Of a stretch of 64,000 nt of DNA, positions 44,912 to 60,390 are shown piece after piece (the stretch's first letter is position 1; every line of letters begins with the position of its first letter). This DNA comes from Utricularia gibba (Eukaryota; Streptophyta; Magnoliopsida; Lamiales; Lentibulariaceae), in contig NEEC01000010.1 in NCBI GenBank assembly GCA_002189035.1, positions 62,001 through 126,000 on the forward strand, written 5' to 3'. Position numbers and translations under genes: made by a program. The notes below the pieces were generated by a model. It ran no database searches, was not told the DNA's origin, and saw nothing but the letters and a program-made list of their open reading frames with translations.

Positions 44912-46148
44912 TCTAATAAATAACTTGTCTTGGATTCTAAGAATAACACAAAATATTGAGTTGAAATACATAACCATAATGCTCAAGAATAAAACATAAT
45001 GGTGCAAATGTATTTAATGTTGTGCTATTAGTATCATATACAATCCTATTAAGATTATCAATTTACATAAGAAATTTTGCAAGATACAAATATTTTTTCG
45101 ATTGCTAGCTAATTTCATTGACTTCATCAATTTCCTCAAAAATATTGTTGTTCAATATGCTATATAAACATCAAATTCTAAGAAATGATTTGGCATATGA
45201 CCAAAATTACTGTTGCTTATACAATATTATCACTTATGGTTGATAAATTATTGAATACCTAAATAACACTTCAAGTAGTAAAAATTTGATAACTCTTCTT
45301 TATACATAAGAAAAATTTAAAAATTAGAATACACACGTCTCATAAGATCAAAACTGAATGAAAATTCTAAAAAATCATAGTTTTTATGGTAATTTTGCAA
45401 GCGCTCAGAAACCGTTGAAATAGGGCTTTTTACTTCGAATGTACCCAAACTTTAGATTAATTACACTAAATATATCCAAACTTTCATATTTACTCCAAAT
45501 ATATTTAAACATTTATTTTTTTTACATAAAATGTGATATATGGGCAAGTGCATCTACACGCTTCCAAATCATAATTTTAGCTGCTAAAATTTTCCAAACC
45601 CTAAAAATCCTTCGACGAATTTCCAGATATCTCACTAGAAGCTGGGACCTAAGAGACTATTAGGAATCAGATACACGACAATTTAGAGAACCGATTGCGA
45701 CAAAGGCACTATTTGGTGATCAAAGAGTTGGTAATGCTTCAACATCAATTATTGTTCTTCTGTATTATTGAGCATCTTTTGAGGTTGTGCATATAGCTAT
45801 TTTGTTTTTGTTCTTTAACAATTTCTTCTTCATAATTTTAAGTAATCTATTTTGAGACAATGCTTGAAATTTAAGAGTCTAGCGCTCAGTTTTGTGTTGC
45901 TATACTATTATGAATGTAGATTCTTTTTCTCATTAGATAAGCCTTTATATTTTTAGATTCCAAAGCACAAATGGCAAGTCGAAGTAACACTAAACTGAAA
46001 AGAACACCTCTTTATGCTATTTTTTTCAATATATTTGGAAATTTATGCATATAAATAAATATGATTATTCAATGTTTTTCTCTATTTTATTTTGAGTATG
46101 TTACATTTAGATTATGCATGCATAGATGAGAATATGTTGTGTTGATAA
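44912..46148. other. Unassigned AT-rich DNA
   Basis: On the minus strand, 44912-45000 may hold a little more Harbinger transposase N-terminus (RIQDKLFIR-like), but this is uncertain. The remainder shows no domain. Confidence 0.35.
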
Positions 46149-48171
46149 TTGATTATAGTTATTTTTTGTGTGATTTGTCATGGGTACACAACTATCAAAT
46201 GGAAATTTACAATAGTTATGCAGTATAGAGGTAAGTTGATACTGGAACCAAGTTTCAAATGGATATCAGACAAAGTTGAGTACTTTGATTTCAATGAATT
46301 CGAATGGATTGACACAAAAAGATTGTTTCAATATGCTGAGGAGTTAGGATATTCAAATAAAAGATATATTAGATTTTGGTATAAGAAAAACAAGACAGTG
46401 AGTGATGGATTGAGGTTGTTAGAAACCAATCAACAAATTATGGAGAGGGAGAATTATTTTGATAAAAAAAAAGACAAATTCATGTATATATAGAGTAGTT
46501 AGTTGATGAAGGCACTAAAGAGATGCAATCTGATGCAAATCATATGACTGGGCAATGAGAAGAATGTAATTTAGAAGCAATATATGATGAAGTACCTTCT
46601 TTGTATTCTAGTATATGCAATTACAACATAATTTTCTTGTTTAAGGACTTTGGTCACCGTTCACATTGATGAGAATTTGCAACGGGCAAATATTGAAAAG
46701 GAAAATGTTACACAGAAGACATTCATTGACGAAGACTATAATTTGGAAGCTGACGAAACTTTGGGAATTAAAATCACTCATGATAAATTTGAGTGATGAT
46801 GAGATCAAGAAGACAACCCTACAATAAGGATCATGGATGAAAAAACACATCGAGGAAAAAATGTTTTGGGGAGTAATAGACTGGAAGAAGAAAGTGATGA
46901 TGATATAAAAGCATAATACATTAGACACATGGACAATGGTCCCAATGAGCTTGATATTGGTGATTCAGAGGAAGATCTAAATAGCTATGATGATTCTAAT
47001 GATGAGGGGGAACTCAAATATCCTGTTTATGATACAAAAAAAATCCATTACTTTTCAAAGGAACACTCTTTAAAACTAGAGATTAAGTTAAATATGCAAT
47101 CAGAAGTCATTGCATATGGAAAGGATATGCAATCAGAAATCATTGCATATGGAAAGTATATGCAATCAAATTTGTATGGATTGATTTACAAAGAGTAAGA
47201 GCAGAGTGTATACAAGATGATTGTCCTTGGTATGTGTATGCATCCAAGGAAAGTATTGATATTTCAAGGCAAATCAAATCATTTGGTGAGGATCATAATC
47301 ATGTTGGAAGAAATTTATCACATGAGAAGATTAGCTATTTGTGGTTGGGACAAACGTTTCAAAAAATGTTTATAGCAGATCCTAATTATAATGTTAACGA
47401 TTTCGTGGGCTATATATTCCAAAAGTATCATAGATGAAAGCATATCGAGCCAAAAAATATGCTCTGAAATTGATTAGAGGACAACATGAAGAACAATTTT
47501 CGAATATTTTTACCTATTTCGAAGATCTTTTAAGGGCAAATGAAGGTTCAACATTAAAATTCAAACTTTATGAAAGGGAGCTAGGATAGCAACGTTTTGA
47601 GGGTTGCTATGTATGTTTCAAAGCATGTAAAGAAGGCTTCAAACATGGTTGTCGACCTTTGATAGGACTAGATGGATGTTTTTTAAAAGGCATGTGGAAA
47701 GGCCAGCTCCTAGCTGCTATATCTATTGATCCCAATAATAATATTTTTCCTATAGCATGGGTTGAAGTAGAAAATGAGAGCATAGAAGCTTGGAGATGGT
47801 TTCTTGAGTTACTCATAAATGATATTGATATTAGGCAGCATAATATGAGATCTTACGCATTTATTTCATATAGATAGAAAGGTCTTATTCCAGCAATTGA
47901 AGAAATTTTGCCTCATGTGGAAATAAGATATTGTGTGTGACAAATTTATGAAAATATGAAGAAGGATTGCGTAGTTCAAGAACAATCGATTAAAAATTGT
48001 ATGTGAGAAGCTGCAAGATATAGAAGAGTGCAAACTTTTGAATTTGCAATGGAGAAACTCAAGAAGCTTAGTTTGAATTGCCATAATTGGTTAATGAAAA
48101 TTCTGCCAAAGTTTTGGCGCAGAGCATTTTTCTCAACTTCACCAAAGTGTGATGCGCTGTTGAATAATGGT
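46149..48171 (+). pseudogene. MULE transposase, N-terminal and catalytic part
   Basis: The N-terminal PB1-like domain of MuDR relatives is at 46200-46490 (VEYFDFNEFEWIDTKRLF, EELGYSNKRYIRFWYK). An acidic segment follows (46929-47010), then a DNA-binding region (CPWYVYASKE at 47221 onward). The catalytic region is 47650-48165: GLDGCFLKGMWKGQLLAA carries the first Asp, followed by NNIFPIAWVEVENESIEA. The second catalytic position, usually ISDRQKGL, reads ISYR and then a stop (47875-47877). Frame shifts and stops occur elsewhere. The reading is cut at 48171 by an inserted LTR and resumes at 49482. Confidence 0.85.
47098..47172 (+). repeat. In-frame tandem duplication inside MULE coding DNA
   Basis: Two and a half copies of a 33-bp unit, ATGCAATCAGAAGTCATTGC and onward, encode repeated MQSEVIAYGKD-like residues between the acidic region and the DNA-binding region. 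Confidence 0.85.
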
Positions 48172-49481
48172 TGTTGCGTGTCGTTTCCTCAACAAATTTT
48201 AAATATTTAAAACGTAAAACACTAGAAAGCGTAGTACGAGTATCGATCTCAAGGAGTTGTTTTTTGTAGAAAGTGTTTTGCAAAAAACTTCTGCAAAATG
48301 TCACGGTTTTGTAAAATGGGGTTTTTAGAATACAGAAAGAAAAGTTACAACCTAAGTGATGGGCCTTGACTACGGTACGCAGTTCCTGGGAATAAGATTC
48401 CATCTCCTTCCTTTGTCCGTCCTTGCCTCGGTTTTCACTGATTTCTTCCGAATAGCTGGTTATAGGAGCAAGGAATAGCCTACTCTCCCTTACACTCTGA
48501 TTGACAAGGAGGCACGGGAATAGCCTCATGTGATTCCCTCTTGGATGATAGAGAAGACAAGAGGATTGCCTTCGATTGCCTTCAAAATCGAATTGTGCGG
48601 GTGTGCCTAGCTGTTGCCAATAGCCAGTGGCAGGTCCGAGGTCACAACTGTCCACTATCGTGGTACCTAGGCTACAAACAATCTGCTACTTCCCTCGAAC
48701 CGGTAGGGTTCGAGTTGGTGCTCTTCACCTTGATCTTCACCAAAATCCGCGAGGAGTGGCCTGCTACTCATGGACCTTGACTAAGAGTCGTTACAGAAAG
48801 ACTGCAACAAGATGCATGGAAGTATGCAGAATCCAAATTGAATTCAGCGAAGAACCGAGTGTATTGTTCAGGACTTGGAAGGAAACTTCATCTTCTCCCA
48901 GAAACTAAAAGGTTTTAGCCACAAAGGGCTATGAAAACATAAACGAAAAAGGAAGCTAAGTGTTCTTCCTCCTTGAAGAGGAGGAAGAACCTAAAAGTTC
49001 AAGTCTACAAAGGAAAATGGCAAAAGTCTGAAACTAAGTGCTCCAAGTGGTTTTTATATGACTTCCCACGTGCATTAACTCCTTTGGGTCCCCTTCCCAT
49101 CATTCCTTCTGCCTTGCGTGCGCCACCAAACTTTCTTTGCGTGCAAGTTTGCGCCCAATCATTGCTGCAGACTCTGACATGTCGTAAGTCAGGGGCCTTG
49201 ACTAGTGTCAGTCTTCCGCCCACAATCATTCCAACTCGCGTACAAGGCACGAAAACTGAAAGTCTGACCACCTGCAATACTCCTGCGACACTCTATGACA
49301 GTCTCCTGACATGTCTCGATCAAAGTGTGAGAAAAAAAACATAAAATATACACAAAATGGGAAAATAGGAATTTTCTAGTAAAAATCAAATACTTAATAA
49401 TAAGATTCCTAATTTGAGCGACTTCATACATAATTAACACATAATAATACCTAATAATTAACTAGAAAATGACACTTAACA
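48172..49481 (+). repeat. Solo LTR (family 3) inside the MULE transposase
   Basis: 1310 bp, TGTTGCGTGTCG...GACACTTAACA. Flanking 5-mers ATGGT (48167-48171) and ATGAT (49482-49486) are a target duplication with one change. Without it the MULE reads CDALLNN into CQCFNSF. A second copy lies at 33664-34810. Confidence 0.9.
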
Positions 49482-50160
49482 ATGATTGTCAATGTTTCAA
49501 TTCATTCATTCAAGTTGCAAGAGATCAACTTATCATTAACATGCTTGAAACAATAAAGGATCTTGTAATGGTGAGAATTCACTCCAATAGGATGAAAGCT
49601 AGAAATCGGATTGGACCATTATGTCCTAGTATTCAAAAGTTGCTAGAAAAAAATTTGTGAAGCACATGATGATCTTCCTTTACCATCATATGAGTTTTAC
49701 TGGCAAGTTGGAACTCAAGAGGAGCAATATAATGTAGATCTGGTGGGAAAGAAATGCAGTTGTAGACAATGGCAATTAATTGGTATTCCATGCACACATG
49801 CCATATGTGTGATTAGGTATGTGGGACATGATCCAATTAATTTTATCGATCCAATGCTTTTCAAAGAAATGCACCATGTTTTCTATAGTCTATCAATCCG
49901 CAGTATTGATTCTATGAAACTATGGATGTCAAGTGATAGAATTCCACCATTTACCCCTGTTTTTCTTAAGAGAGTTGGCAGGCCAAAAAAGAAAAGAATA
50001 AGAGCACCTTGTGAGCTATCATCGAAACAACAAGATCCAAGTAGATTAATTGGTATGAAACGGTGCAATAGGTGCTCACGTTGTGGTGAGTTTGGACACA
50101 ATATTCGTAAATGTGAGAATCCTCCAATGGCACCTACTGAAGAAAAAATTCCCAAAAAAA
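49482..50160 (+). pseudogene. MULE transposase C-terminus with SWIM and zinc knuckle
   Basis: The reading resumes with VARDQLIINMLETIKDLVM. The SWIM zinc finger is CSCRQWQLIGIPCTHAI (49755-49805). A CCHC knuckle follows (CSRCGEFGHNIRKC, 50077-50118), with a basic GRPKKKRIR stretch between. The open frame 49743-50192 is intact, but an upstream stop after LLEKNL (near 49658) interrupts the link. Confidence 0.85.
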
Positions 50161-50699
50161 ATGGTATGTTTTCGTATTTTTCTATTCTTTAAAATATGAA
50201 GTGTACTTTGTTTAATTCGTCATCGTAGTACTAATAAATTCAATTTTCTATTATATAGGGATGATCGTGCTCACAAAATCCATCTGCAACTCCAAGGAAG
50301 TAGGAGATCCAAGAACTAGAAATCAAAAAATAGCATTGAAATGAATATCATGTTTTGATGAAAAAAATGAATATTATTTATGTTGATGTTATGCTTTCAT
50401 AGTATTATGGATATCTCTTTTGTTTGATTTACATCTTATTATGTGGTATTATGATGTTATTCTTATTTAAAATGAATTTATATGTTTTATGCAAATATCA
50501 TTATGATATGCACCAATTGTTTATTTTAATGAAATGATTTATATTTTATTCACACAAAGGAAGTGTGTAATATTTTTCGTCACAGGTAGTTTTCTAGAGT
50601 TCTCACTTTTTGGTGAACTCAATTCTGCAACATTACAAGAAGTATTATTGTAAGAAGTTTATTTAATTAATTTAAACATATATGAATGGTGAACATATT
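50161..50699. other. Spacer between MULE and ULP1 relics
   Basis: AT-rich, no domain seen. It may hold the MULE 3' end or introns of the next gene. Confidence 0.4.
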
Positions 50700-51375
50700 A
50701 TTATTTAATGCAATTTGCAGGACAATGATGGGAAGATTTAGTATTGAAAAGGTTTCAAATACGGAGTTATTTGATTGTCTCTGGTTTTACAGCTACCATG
50801 GTGCGAGTGATCGCACTAGTTTGATAAACAAACTACAGAAAAGATCAATCTTGAGAAGGACATATGTCATCACTCCAATAGTGCTTGAATATGTTTTAAT
50901 TTATTTCATATATTTTATTGAAGAAACTAATGATAGTTGTGTGCAGTAAACATTGGAGTTTGCTAGTGTTGTGCAACTTTGGAAACAAGGAAAAACCTAT
51001 AATGCTTCTTCTTGACCCCATAAAAAATCATCCAAATCAAAGTCAAATTGAAAAGGATGTTATGTTTACTATGTCATGAAATGATTACATGTACTAATAT
51101 TTTATTGATATGTTTGCTTGAAATTTACTTAAAACATTCAGTCAAGAAGAGTCATATGAGCATGTATCATATATACCTTTTTTTGAAGCCAAAGGTAAGA
51201 ACGTGTAATTATGAATATTTTCATATATTTAATCTTACAATATATTGCAATATAGGTGCCTCTACAAAGTGAATGGACTGAGTGCAGACTTTATATTTTG
51301 TACTATATCTATAGGTTCATAAAGGAAGCACCCGTTACTTTTGACTTTAAAGGATTTCCATACTTTGTAAGTTGA
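50700..51375 (+). pseudogene. ULP1-type (C48) SUMO protease relic
   Basis: Three blocks are separated by intron-like DNA. Block 1 (50725-50879) reads ELFDCLWFYSY...RTYVITPIV. Block 2 (50948-51075) reads KHWSLLVLCNFGNKEKPIML and LLDPI, giving the catalytic His and Asp regions. Block 3 (51253-51367) starts after a TATAG acceptor with VPLQSEWTECRLYILYYI and RFIKEAPVTF, where the Cys of the DCG/ECG site is kept but Gly is Arg. A GTAAG donor follows. C48 peptidases process or remove SUMO. The part between blocks 2 and 3 is broken by a stop, and N-terminal sequence is unclear. It lies 540 bases after the MULE C-terminus on the same strand. Confidence 0.65.
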
Positions 51376-51839
51376 TTATAATCCTTACACTTCATACCTC
51401 ATAGATAGATTACACAAAATATGTCTTACCAACGATATTCGATTGATTCCTTCTCCTTAAGTACTTGAGGTCAATCTTAGATTCTTCCACACATCCTTGG
51501 GTTATGTGGTACTAAATAGCACATTGGTAAAGAAAACATTGTGAAAAAAAGAATCAAATATCAAATTAAATGTAAAAAAACATGGTAAATCAATCATATG
51601 TATAGGACTTGCACAAGTATGGCTTCACTACAAATCCTTAATTGCAAGAGCTCATACGTGCATGCTTGACTTTAATATAAAATAAATAAGAAAATAGGAA
51701 AAATACAAAGAAAAATTGGTCAAAATATATCTCTAATAATTGAGAGAAGGATTGTTTATCGTAGGGTAAATACAAAATCTTCGTATTGGATAATGCAATA
51801 CTTGTTGCTGGTTGTCTTTTCGGCATGATTAGGGACGGA
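51376..51839. other. Unassigned spacer
   Basis: No recognisable domain between the ULP1 relic and the next Myb/SANT fragment. Confidence 0.4.
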
Positions 51840-52045: not shown

Positions 52046-53800
52046 TTTATTGATTTGGTTGCTGCAGATCCTTGAGAATATACGAGATCCACATTAATTC
52101 GGTCGTAGCGGACACCAGGCTCCGGTACTCCGCTTCCGTGGAAGACCGAGAAATGGTGGCCTGTTTTTTTGTTTTCCAAGAAATGTGACGACCACCCAAA
52201 AGCATGCAGAAACCAGTAAAAGATCTCCTTGTGATCGCACACGCCCCCAATCAGCATAGAGATCCAAATTCCATTTGGCAAAGTAAAACAAACCATGAGA
52301 GGTGGTCCTTAATAGGTATGCGACGATGCGCTTGGCCGTATGAAGGTGATCCTCAGACGGTGCCTGCATAAATTAGGATAACTGTTGAACAGGAATGCGA
52401 TATTCGGGCAGATAAAGCTCAAATACAATAGGCGACCAATGAGGGTTCGAAACACATCCGGATCCGAGAGGAGGGGACTGTCATCTGAGAACTTGAAGTT
52501 GCGAGGCAGCTGAGCAAGGATCTCCCTGTCCTCCAAGCCATGAGACCCAACACTCTACACAATATCAGAAGTATATTTCCGCTGTGAAAGATGAAGACCT
52601 TCAGGTGTTCGAACTAATTCCACACCAAGAAAAAAACTAGCAGGGCTGATGTCCTTGATGGTAAACTGGCGATGGAGATGGCGCTTTAACCCATTAATCT
52701 CATCAAGGTTGGGCCCTACTAGAATAATATCGTCCGCATAGATCAAGGCCAAGAAGTTGCCAGCAGATCCTTTCACAAAAAGACACGGGTCAGAAACAGA
52801 TTGAGGAAAGCCAAGGGTCCCAAGGAAATGAGTTAGCTCAAGGTTCCATTGGCAAGATGCCTGTCAAAGTCCGTATAACAAGCAATGTAACTTGCAAACA
52901 AGTCCCTCATGAATAGCATACTCGAGGGGCATCCATGTATATATCCTCATCAAGGTACCCATATCGAAAGGTATTGTTCACATCAACCAGATGAATATGC
53001 CAATTGTGCTTAGCACTCACGACATACGGACAGTGGTTACCTTAGCCATGGGTGCAAAGTGGTCGGTGAAATCTACACCAGCAACCTAAGTGTAGCCCTT
53101 GGCCACAAGGCAGGCCTTGTGGCACCCTATAGAGTCATCGGCATGTCGCTTAACCTTATAAACCCATTTACATCCAATGGATCGCTTATCCGGATGCAAG
53201 GAAACAAGAGTCCATGTGTGACTGGCAAGGAAGGCCTCCAACTCATGAGACATGGCTGCCTCCCAAACCGAAATACCCTTAGCATGCTCATAGCTAGGAG
53301 GTTCACCGAGCATATACACGGGTTCATGGGACGCAGTATCAAAGGAATGAAGCTGAAGTGACACATAGTCCTGCATCCATCTTGGAGGATGAGTGGGACG
53401 AGAACTGCGCCAGCAACCAAATCCCTCATCCACGGTGTCGGGAATGACAGAATCATCCGAGGACACGGAGAGAGGAGCCGAAGGCTGTGACATAGAAGGA
53501 GACATGGTGGGAGCCATGGGAGATGATGGGGAGACAAAGTCCCTAGTACGGGCAGAATATGGCAGGAAGTTCTCATCGTCACGAGAGAGCACGAAAGGCA
53601 GGGCAGAGTCCATGTCGGGAGCATCCTCTGTGCGACCCCTTTAAGGGAAAAATGTGTTCGAAAAATTTGACATCCCTACTAATGGATACCTCTTGGAAAG
53701 CCACATCATAACACTTGAGACCATCAAAGATATTGGAAAACCTAGGAATGATGTCCTTCGGAGTAATGAAGACTCGATGGATGTTTGAGTTATACCTCTT
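52046..53800 (-). pseudogene. Ty1/copia integrase end, reverse transcriptase and RNase H remnant
   Basis: Minus-strand order: integrase C-terminal segment (EVSISRDVKFFEHIFPLK, 53740-53640). A linker and RT start follow (WEAAMSHELEAFLASHTW, KRSIGCKWVYKVKRHADD). RT core carries ALIYADDIILVG with an intact YADD (52720). Thumb and connection follow (VFRTLIGRLLYLSF), then RNase H (STEAEYRSLVSATTELMW). At least four frame changes and some stops interrupt it. It ends abruptly next to the Myb/SANT fragment. Confidence 0.85.
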
Positions 53801-54019: not shown

Positions 54020-55773
54020 TCAGAGCCACTTAGCACCAACGGATCGGAATGATCAATAAAGGCACTAGCACCGTAACCGGACAGAATTGGTTCACCAGCC
54101 ACTTCAGTCATCTTTGTGAACAAGAATTGAAGATATGTTGTGCAGTTGTTTGGAGCAACGTTGGTGCTTGAGCTTGGGAAGTAGATTTCAAAAGACGGTA
54201 CAACAACAGGTAAGACCTGGGAGTATTTAAACTACTTCCTATGAAAGAGTCGACCGTTGCGGTAGATAGTAGGCTTCATTTGATTATTTGGATCTTTGGG
54301 CTTTTCTAAGTTGATGTCGGGCCTCATTCTCTAGTCAACCCAGGTTTCCCTCTCCTCCAGAATCGCAGCATTACAGATCGACGCTGGTGTGTTGAGTTCT
54401 TCAGGATGGAGCGCTGATGCAGCACAATCTAACAGAAATCACCGGGAAGTCAGAGAAGTTTGCTCCACGCTCACCACACCATGTGCGAACGTAAACCGAC
54501 GATAGAAACGAAGAAGAAACGATATTGGGAACAAAATTCAATTTCTGTTGTTGTTGGAAAACATGTGCTAGCTCAGCTAATGTAGTAGAGTTAGCTTACG
54601 TACAGTGCGGTTATAACCGCTAAGTACAACACTTACTTCATGGACTTTAAGCAATCTCCTAATTCCAATATTTCAGACCCAAAGACAAACTCCAAGGAGT
54701 GATATAGCAAGGAACCGGACATCTCTAATGTCAAATGTACTGGGCAAACAAGTAGTAGAAAAAGAATATGAACGTAGATGAATCGTTCAGAGCTAAAATG
54801 AGGGCAATGCATAATGAAACTTGAGCTGACCTTTATTGGAAGTCTGAATAAGGTCAGTGGTAGAATAGATGATTTCCAATGTGGTAATGAGGGTTGACAT
54901 GATATTTTTGCTGATGTTGCTGTTTGAGAATGGATGTTATTGGAGATTTGGATATTGTATTGAGGTTTTTTAGCTATAAAAATAGCATTTTTCTCCTTTA
55001 CAACGAAGCCATATTTATAGAACAGAAAAATAGCCGTTAGGCTGTGTGATTCGCGATATCTTATCCTCTGAGAATTTCTGTTTCCGTTCTCCTTCAGCAG
55101 AACGGTCATCTCGTGGGAGAGGATGCTCTCTACTGGATTGGGCTTGGGACATTGCAGGGCTCAACGAACTTCTGCTTGCATATATGACCTGGTATACTGT
55201 TTATTGGGCCCATAACAATAAGTCCAGTGTCTGTATTTTCCCTCTGATTTCTGGTGATGGACTTTCTGCGACAGTTTTCCTCCCTCGCATCGTTTCCCTT
55301 CGGCTCACGCTCTTCTGCCTCAGGTCCCTGGTGCTTCTGATTTTTCTCAGTTTCAACATCACCGTCCAACAACCTTCGTGTCATTAGCACGCAAATGGGC
55401 GAACTCAGTGGAATGCAAACAAGGGTAGTGGAGATCATCCGAAAAATGGCACTCCATAATCATCGAGATCATTGCATCGAATGTAAGTGCTTTGTTACTG
55501 TCACCGATGACGAGGATGAGAGCACTGTGCTCAATATTGCTGGCAAAAATGAGCAGTAGTTTTAAATTAGGTTCATTTGTTTTTGGATGTTGACTGCTAG
55601 TTATTTTTGGAGAAGTTAAAGACTTCTCTTTATCCATATCCATTTCACATTTAAACTTGGTTGTTTGAGATACTTGTCTTCCGTTAAAAAAACAAAATTG
55701 TCATGTTTTAGATAAGTAAAAATGTACTTGTAATGGAGAATAAAACAACACTGAATTTGCATGAGTTCAAACT
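54020..55773. other. Mixed repeat-like DNA, unassigned
   Basis: Several minus-strand open frames (for example 54633-55109 and 55130-55438) show no recognised domain. The composition is less AT-rich than its neighbours, as in LTR or untranslated parts of a retrotransposon. No boundaries were found. Confidence 0.4.
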
Positions 55774-58814: not shown

Positions 58815-60390
58815 TATTGAGCATGAGAGCACAGAATTCTTGCACTCTTCTAAAACCCACAAGTGCATGTTCGATACGATATGTCGACAAGGTGGACCTT
58901 GTTTTGATGTGGGTCTATTTCAATGACAGATGGTGTCATCGTCTGTCGGCTATACTCCTCAAGCATAAGACCATGAAGATTTTTTTATCCCAATTGAAAT
59001 ACCTTTTCGCTTTTCTCTGCGCATAGTTGCCTTTTATTTGCAAGAGTCTCAGCTATTTTGCGACGATCCTCAAAATATTCTTTTCCCTTCATGAATATGA
59101 CCTACATAAGAAATACAACACAGTCAGCTTTCAAACTATTTATAAACAATGAGAGCAAAGTATGAACCTTCGCAATTATAGTTGAGGAAGGCGTTCAGTT
59201 TCACGAAACACTCCATTTATTGACTCAACATGATTCATTGTCATGATCCCATACCTGTTCATTAAGGCATAAATGATCTTTGCAGTGCGATGCAATAAGA
59301 ATGATGATTACCTCATACCACTATCGTGTGATAATGTCCACATATCTAAAGGAATATTCATTAGGTATTTATAGATTCCAGGATTCGTTTAGTAGATCAC
59401 ACCCATCAAACATTCAAATTCCTCAACACGTGGTGTTATGCCTGCAGCCCAAACCAAACCATGCAAATGTTTGCTCCTTTTATGTGTGTAACAGTTGGAT
59501 CTGACACTCGACGATAAAATCAGTGGTATCCATATGACGGCCAAAAACTAGGGACCACATCCAAGGCGACCAATAATCTAGAGCATCTATCACTAATTAA
59601 GCATATGAGATGATGACCACGTATAATATGAACTTGTAATTGTTCTAAAAACCAGATCCATGCAGAATCTGACTCTTCATCCACTAAAGCATAGTCTAAT
59701 GGGAGAGCATGCCCACAAACATCCATGGCCATGGAAATTAGTAGTTTGTATTTATATTGGCGATATAAATGTGTCCCATCTACTTGTATGACTAGACGAC
59801 ATTATTTGTATGTAGCAATATATGGCGCAAATGCCCAGAAAACATAGTGTAGAACCAGCCTTCCCCTATTATCACTAACGTTTTTCCAAATTATCACAAA
59901 CTAGGATTTTGCCTCTCCAGTTCTTGCAAATACTTTGGAAATTCTCTTGTAGAATCCTACCAAGTGTTGTACACAAGCTCATAATCTCATATCAAGATGG
60001 ACCAACCCTTCCAGTAAGAGATTTTGAATTTAAATTGTTGTAGGACTTCCCCTGTATTGTGGAAGCCTTGATTCTTGGTCGGTTTACATGTTCCTATGCT
60101 AAGGAACTCCGAACATTACACGTGTGAGGTTCTTGGAAATCCGTAATCTTCCATAATTTTTTCCGATTTTGGAAGCGTGCGTTCAAGTGCCATGGACATC
60201 TGAATTTTTTTCCCAATTTTGGTGGCAAATGAGATGGTAGATTGAATTACTGCTTCTAGACACATGAAACTCTATTCTCACCATAAAAATAGAGTACTTT
60301 GTGATTGCATCTTTGAACTCAGCCCTACTGTAAAAGAAATCTGGAAGCAAGAAGCATTGTGGTGGCATTATAAGATGAACCAATTTTCAG
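58815..60390 (-). pseudogene. MULE transposase relic 2
   Basis: Minus-strand order: N-terminal DNA-binding region (SRAEFKDAITKYSIFMVR at 60300). The catalytic region follows (VIQVDGTHLYRQYKYKLL near 59780 with the first Asp, then ALVDEESDSAWIWFLEQL, then LICLISDRC with the second Asp). A RRKIAETLANKRQL segment lies near 59050. The SWIM finger (CTCGF, a stop, then ILCSHA) is at 58818-58868. Stops and frame shifts are frequent. Unlike the first MULE, the ISDR motif is kept. Confidence 0.75.

Follow-up and report, generated by a model that had tools for sequence, protein, structure and literature searches.

A predicted ULP2/FUG-type C48 protease gene carried by Mutator-like transposons of Utricularia gibba

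Introduction

When the transposase of a Mutator-like element (MULE) is followed on the same strand by a gene for a ubiquitin-like protease (ULP) of the C48 type, is the protease a gene of the transposon or a host gene that happens to lie beside it? The question is raised by a locus in a stretch of 64,000 nucleotides of Utricularia gibba (positions 62001-126000 of contig NEEC01000010.1, here C304, within a 100 Mb assembly), which we call the window. A first-pass annotation, made from the letters of the DNA alone, had described at positions 46149-51375 a "Kaonashi-like" MULE with a PB1-like domain, a DDE transposase, a SWIM finger and a zinc knuckle, followed by a C48 peptidase split by introns. 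The arrangement that it flagged does exist in the window.

MULEs that carry ULP genes have been described in several plants. The KI-MULEs of Arabidopsis are devoid of terminal inverted repeats (TIRs), and their ULP runs opposite to the transposase; ULP-MULEs are also found in melon, rice and grapevine, the last having both orientations in TIR and non-TIR MULEs (PMC2528002).

Results

The protease lies inside the element

Positions 45423-51366 of the window are, with high confidence, a dead and right-truncated copy of a TIR-type MULE, whose family carries a MURA-type transposase and a ULP2/FUG-type C48 protease on the same strand, inside the terminal repeats. Part of the evidence comes from the sister copies of this family (family A). 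A DNA search finds in C321 a copy with 88-90% identity in both genes, whose ends (left TIR at 48160-48270, right TIR at 54796-54910) are inverted repeats of each other; the ULP stands between them and is thus inside the element. The suggestion that this MULE carries a SUMO protease gene is thereby borne out by copies that hold both parts. In a fourth, degraded copy (C2:2748569-2751378) the ULP exons adjoin the right TIR, and no transposase turned up within about 4 kb of it.

The first-pass annotation had allowed that MULE copies might always be without the protease, which is not so. The one family-A copy that has none (C409:838599-843884) possesses both TIRs, and its right TIR region directly follows what is left of the gene, namely an intron acceptor and ~20 bp from the start of ULP exon A; since this breakpoint falls within exon A, the gene was lost by deletion. 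No homology is found directly outside the termini of the family-A copies, which are therefore separate insertions. The ULP is a gene of the element and not a neighbouring host gene.

Two further observations concern the family. In the C321 copy, a 1.14 kb high-copy repeat (L047, C321:53616-54758; ~80-87% identity, about 40 copies among the matches listed) separates the last ULP exon from the right TIR. Furthermore, an element of ~2.1 kb (L071, C98:344204-346291) has family-A TIRs and, close to its left terminus, a fragment of the 3' part; its target-site duplication (TSD) matches at 8/9 positions, and this short derivative is likely a non-autonomous form.

Terminal repeats and borders

Inverted ends of ~110-150 bp are present in the C321, C409 and C98 copies, and the window retains the left one (Table 1), which makes the element a TIR-MULE. 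Its left border is the TIR at 45423 and not position 46149. The 9-bp TSDs of the C409 copy (TATAAATGT/TACAAATGT) and of the C98 derivative (TATATTATC/TATATTATT) each match at 8/9 positions, for which the chance at a fixed edge is ~2e-4 each. As regards the terminal repeats and 9-bp duplications for which the first-pass annotation had suggested a search outside 46000 and 51400, the left TIR and its candidate TSD were found in the window, and the right end is lost. It is replaced from 51379 by a high-copy repeat, and the window copy has neither the last ULP exon nor a right TIR; a pattern search for the latter within the window found none. Nor does C304 give any match to the non-repetitive part of the C321 3' region, which was used for this search as the longer 3' part is swamped by the 1.14 kb high-copy repeat.

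The left TIR is made up of ~31-bp tandem sub-repeats (TTTACTCCAAATATATCCAAACTTTACATTA, window 45429-45518), possibly a protein-binding array.

The transposase gene

On read-through frames Pfam finds, all on the plus strand, DBD_Tnp_Mut, MULE, SWIM and CCHC, in that order, and the C48 part comes next. The same-strand succession of DDE, SWIM, zinc knuckle and intron-split C48 that had been read from the sequence is thus seen again, by Pfam and in joined exons, and the DDE transposase domain makes the element a MULE. The PB1-like label did not hold: Pfam gives no support for such a domain in the window, in C321 or in C409, and the stretch so labelled is a conserved N-terminal part of the transposase. 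The transposase gene of the window copy is defective because it contains several in-frame stops, to which frameshifts are added.

Two other features of this gene deserve mention. The ~1.3 kb insertion nested within it (window 48175-49478) has GTGTC-type inverted ends and GGCCTTGACTA repeats, and the site of its relative in the C409 copy (C409:840378-841672) is a different one. A 33-bp tandem duplication (2.3 copies, 95%) in the coding region, at window 47092-47168, is seemingly not present in C321.

The protease gene

The protease gene begins ~0.6 kb after the knuckle and comprises at least five exons in the family, of which four are left in the window copy. Taken singly, the C48 exons of the window copy give no Pfam match; joined, they reach 21.3 bits with PF02902, a narrow pass over the cut-off of 20.7, as against 38.7 bits for the C321 copy. 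The family profile matches SENP7 (E 1e-17) and yeast Ulp2 (E 1.5e-11) in PDB, and most copies in the alignment, whatever their family, retain the catalytic His, Asp, Gln and Cys. Judged by its sequence, the product is a C48 peptidase. A genome search with PF02902 alone returned seven exons, none of them within the window, because Pfam misses the intron-split ULPs of transposons.

Table 1. Features of the element in the window (positions are those of the window; a dot in the strand column means that no strand applies)
Feature	Position	Strand	Remarks
Candidate left 9-bp TSD, GTTGAAATA	45414-45422	.	Directly outside the TIR; no partner found, the right end being lost
Left TIR, begins GGGCTTTTTACTTCGAATG / GGGCTTTTTACTTC	45423-45537	+	Matches the right TIR of C321, inverted, at 87% identity
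N-terminal conserved transposase stretch ("PB1-like" label)	46218-46463	+	80% identical protein in C321; Pfam negative
DBD_Tnp_Mut (MuDR-type DNA-binding)	47129-47254	+	Pfam 23.0 bits, slightly under the cut-off of 25
MULE DDE core of the transposase; contains in-frame stops	47662-47955	+	PF10551, 44-47 bits (44.1 on read-through frames)
Nested ~1.3 kb insertion within the transposase	48175-49478	.	Relative at another place in the C409 copy
SWIM zinc finger	49728-49820	+	Pfam 26.6 bits
CCHC zinc knuckle, CSRCGEFGHNIRKC	50073-50117	+	14.1 bits, under the cut-off; exact CX2CX4HX4C motif
ULP exon A, ends ...RRTYVITPIV	50720-50883	+	C48 part
ULP exon B, catalytic His and Asp (KHWSLLVLCNF...IMLLLDP)	50945-51063	+	C48 part
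ULP exon C (ESYEHVSYIPFFEAK)	51141-51198	+	C48 part; donor gtaag
ULP exon D (VPLQSEWTECRLY...), Gln and catalytic Cys	51256-51366	+	Flanked by acceptor ag and donor gtaag; Gly after Cys is Arg
High-copy repeat, start	51379-51600	.	At least 36 further copies, ~81-84%, among the matches listed; truncates the element

Pairing of MULE and C48 domains across the genome

Four C48 searches, combined, gave 58 C48 loci, which were set against lists of MULE and SWIM domains; all these lists are lower bounds. A search of the genome for both domains close together, as the first-pass annotation had proposed, brought out 13 of the 58 loci, in which a MULE domain precedes the C48 part by 1.7-3.1 kb on the same strand. 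One locus has a same-strand MULE domain downstream, and none of the 58 has an opposite-strand one within 8 kb. About 1.4 pairs in any arrangement would be expected by chance, with the reservation that pairs from one family are not independent. The pairs represent a minimum of five divergent families (A, B, D, F and G, probably also H); between these, the identity of the DDE cores is 29-57%. The inspected pairs are those found earlier together with seven that were fetched; in 7/7 of the latter, DDE and C48 are on one strand, with SWIM or CCHC between them in most. SWIM alone reveals more pairs (L050, L051 and L056).

Relationship to an apparent FUG-type host gene

A host gene at C3:2599795-2600566, which we take to be FUG-like on the model of At3g48480 (FUG1, a class IV plant ULP), differs from the transposon copies by its intact exons and has no MULE match within 8 kb. 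In a tree of 14 C48 segments, it groups at 98/96 support with the transposon ULPs, apart from human SENP7 and two host genes of the ULP2 class; the comparison is with that class taken as a whole (OTS or SPF) and not with ESD4-type genes. Intron positions are also common to the group. Exon D starts with V-P-x-Q directly after the acceptor ag in the C3 gene and the transposon ULPs (L-P-Q-Q after ag at the same position in two ULP2-class host genes), and its end, F followed by the donor gt, coincides between the C3 gene and families A, B, D, F, G and H.

Within this group the FUG-like sequence falls among those of the transposons; a transposon-only clade costs 1.5 log units (p-AU 0.26), and a position of FUG outside the transposon proteases is not rejected by the tree. 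The C3 gene is the nearest relative of nearly every transposon family (42-57% identity, as against 35-49% between families), which is expected under either direction of transfer, because a host gene evolves slowly. The DDE and C48 distances show no significant correlation (r=0.31; 23/120 permutations as high). Upstream of exon A, a motif P-x-x-R-x-Y/F-G-x-L is present in families C, D, F and G, with a weaker form in B, and was not found upstream of the C3 host gene; as a trait common to several families it hints, weakly, at one acquisition.

Discussion

The reading of this locus as a remnant of a ULP-carrying TIR-MULE has to be weighed against several observations. No intact copy of the family was identified, and the C321 copy shows no clear TSD. 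Conserved positions of the protease are lost in single copies, Cys-Gly having become Cys-Arg in the window and Asp having become Asn in family G. Between sister copies of families A, B and D, exons and introns are about equally identical, so that the protease shows no sign of selection after insertion; as far as sequence comparison can tell, the copies compared decay neutrally once inserted. The kept catalytic residues suggest that the protease was under selection while the elements were active. A TGA common to three copies (CV*HIYENM) was considered as a sign of trans-mobilisation and set aside, as CGA-to-TGA changes at methylated CpG can recur.

How did the protease come to be associated with these transposons? 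Different MULE families may each have captured a FUG-type gene independently, rather than inheriting the product of one ancient acquisition; we give this somewhat less than even odds, and it is compatible with the nature of the element as given above. Such captures would account for the C3 gene being the nearest to nearly every family and for the uncorrelated DDE and C48 distances, and the grapevine data have been read in the same manner (PMC2528002). Against them stand the identical strand and the identical place after the knuckle and, weakly, the upstream motif of families C, D, F, G and B that the host gene does not share.

Rice Pack-MULEs pick up fragments of host genes, and a recent capture of this kind, of a FUG-type gene fragment whose protease has no role, would agree with the decay of the copies and with intron places that are those of the host gene, as expected of a capture of genomic DNA. 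It is nevertheless very improbable: over exons B and D the protease of the window family shares only ~48% identity with the host FUG-type gene, similar pairs occur in families with strongly diverged DDE cores, and the catalytic residues are kept. Indeed, this identity and the presence of pairs in divergent families mean that the association of MULE and ULP is old. Finally, the C321 copy and the genome-wide excess of same-strand pairs already refute the idea that a host ULP gene or pseudogene came to lie beside a MULE insertion by chance. The missing right TIR lends itself to this idea in the window, where the ULP is not demonstrably inside, but the ULP beside the right TIR in C2 and the exon A stub kept in C409 speak against it as well.

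The element is thus best understood as a ULP-carrying TIR-MULE of the melon and grapevine type. With CUMULE of melon (van Leeuwen 2007) and Mutavine of grapevine (Benjak 2008) it has in common the TIRs and a ULP downstream of the transposase reading frame in the direct orientation, which is among the forms reported, and probably also the 9-bp TSD, to judge by the 8/9 matches of the C409 and C98 members; these are elements of other plants, likened here by description, whereas the copies in U. gibba are decayed. The Kaonashi KI-MULEs with their KIU genes (Hoen 2006) are likewise MULEs that carry a C48 ULP-like gene, but they are non-TIR elements with a reverse ULP, and the "Kaonashi-like" class first given to the locus does not fit TIRs of ~110-150 bp and a direct-orientation ULP, on the same strand in 13/13 pairs. 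VANDAL elements are non-TIR MULEs. Those with VANC anti-silencing genes resemble the present element in having an accessory gene; VANDAL elements with KIU have been discussed as systems that counter silencing, and a Ulp1 domain is reported in some VANC genes (PMC13317346). ULP-carrying MULEs are already known from Arabidopsis, melon, rice and grapevine; what is added here is that the pairing recurs across divergent families and that the protease groups with an apparent FUG-type host gene.

We infer that the element moved in the past by means of its own transposase. In a live element, the transposase would bind the TIRs, move the element and leave 9-bp duplications. The most likely task of the protease would be to remove SUMO from nuclear proteins to the advantage of the element, its targets being silencing factors of the host or else the transposase. 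We put forward only tentatively this model, in which transposase-driven movement would be accompanied by a co-encoded protease of presumed deSUMOylating activity towards one or the other target.

Two features close to the element in the window are independent of this argument. Ty1-copia polymerase remnants (52047-53640, minus strand) adjoin the high-copy repeat that truncates the MULE, and a second, distant MULE transposase fragment (~31% identical) lies at 59553-59801 on the minus strand, with no C48 found near it within the window.

In conclusion, several divergent MULE families of this plant regularly carry, as a second gene, a predicted SUMO protease, which is not a one-off passenger and is tied to what appears to be the host class IV (FUG) clade. 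The origin of the FUG class is described as elusive and its distribution as limited to flowering plants or seed plants (PMC6117577, PMC11371177), and in Arabidopsis the silencing induced by repeat expansion needs FUG1 (PMC12177298). We found no paper that joins FUG1, SUMO and Mutator, and an earlier statement is possible in subscription papers. That the FUG1 class was domesticated from a protease carried by Mutator-like transposons is, in our estimation, unlikely. If a common origin is true, the silencing machinery of plants includes a tool acquired from transposons, or else transposons have turned a host tool against silencing.

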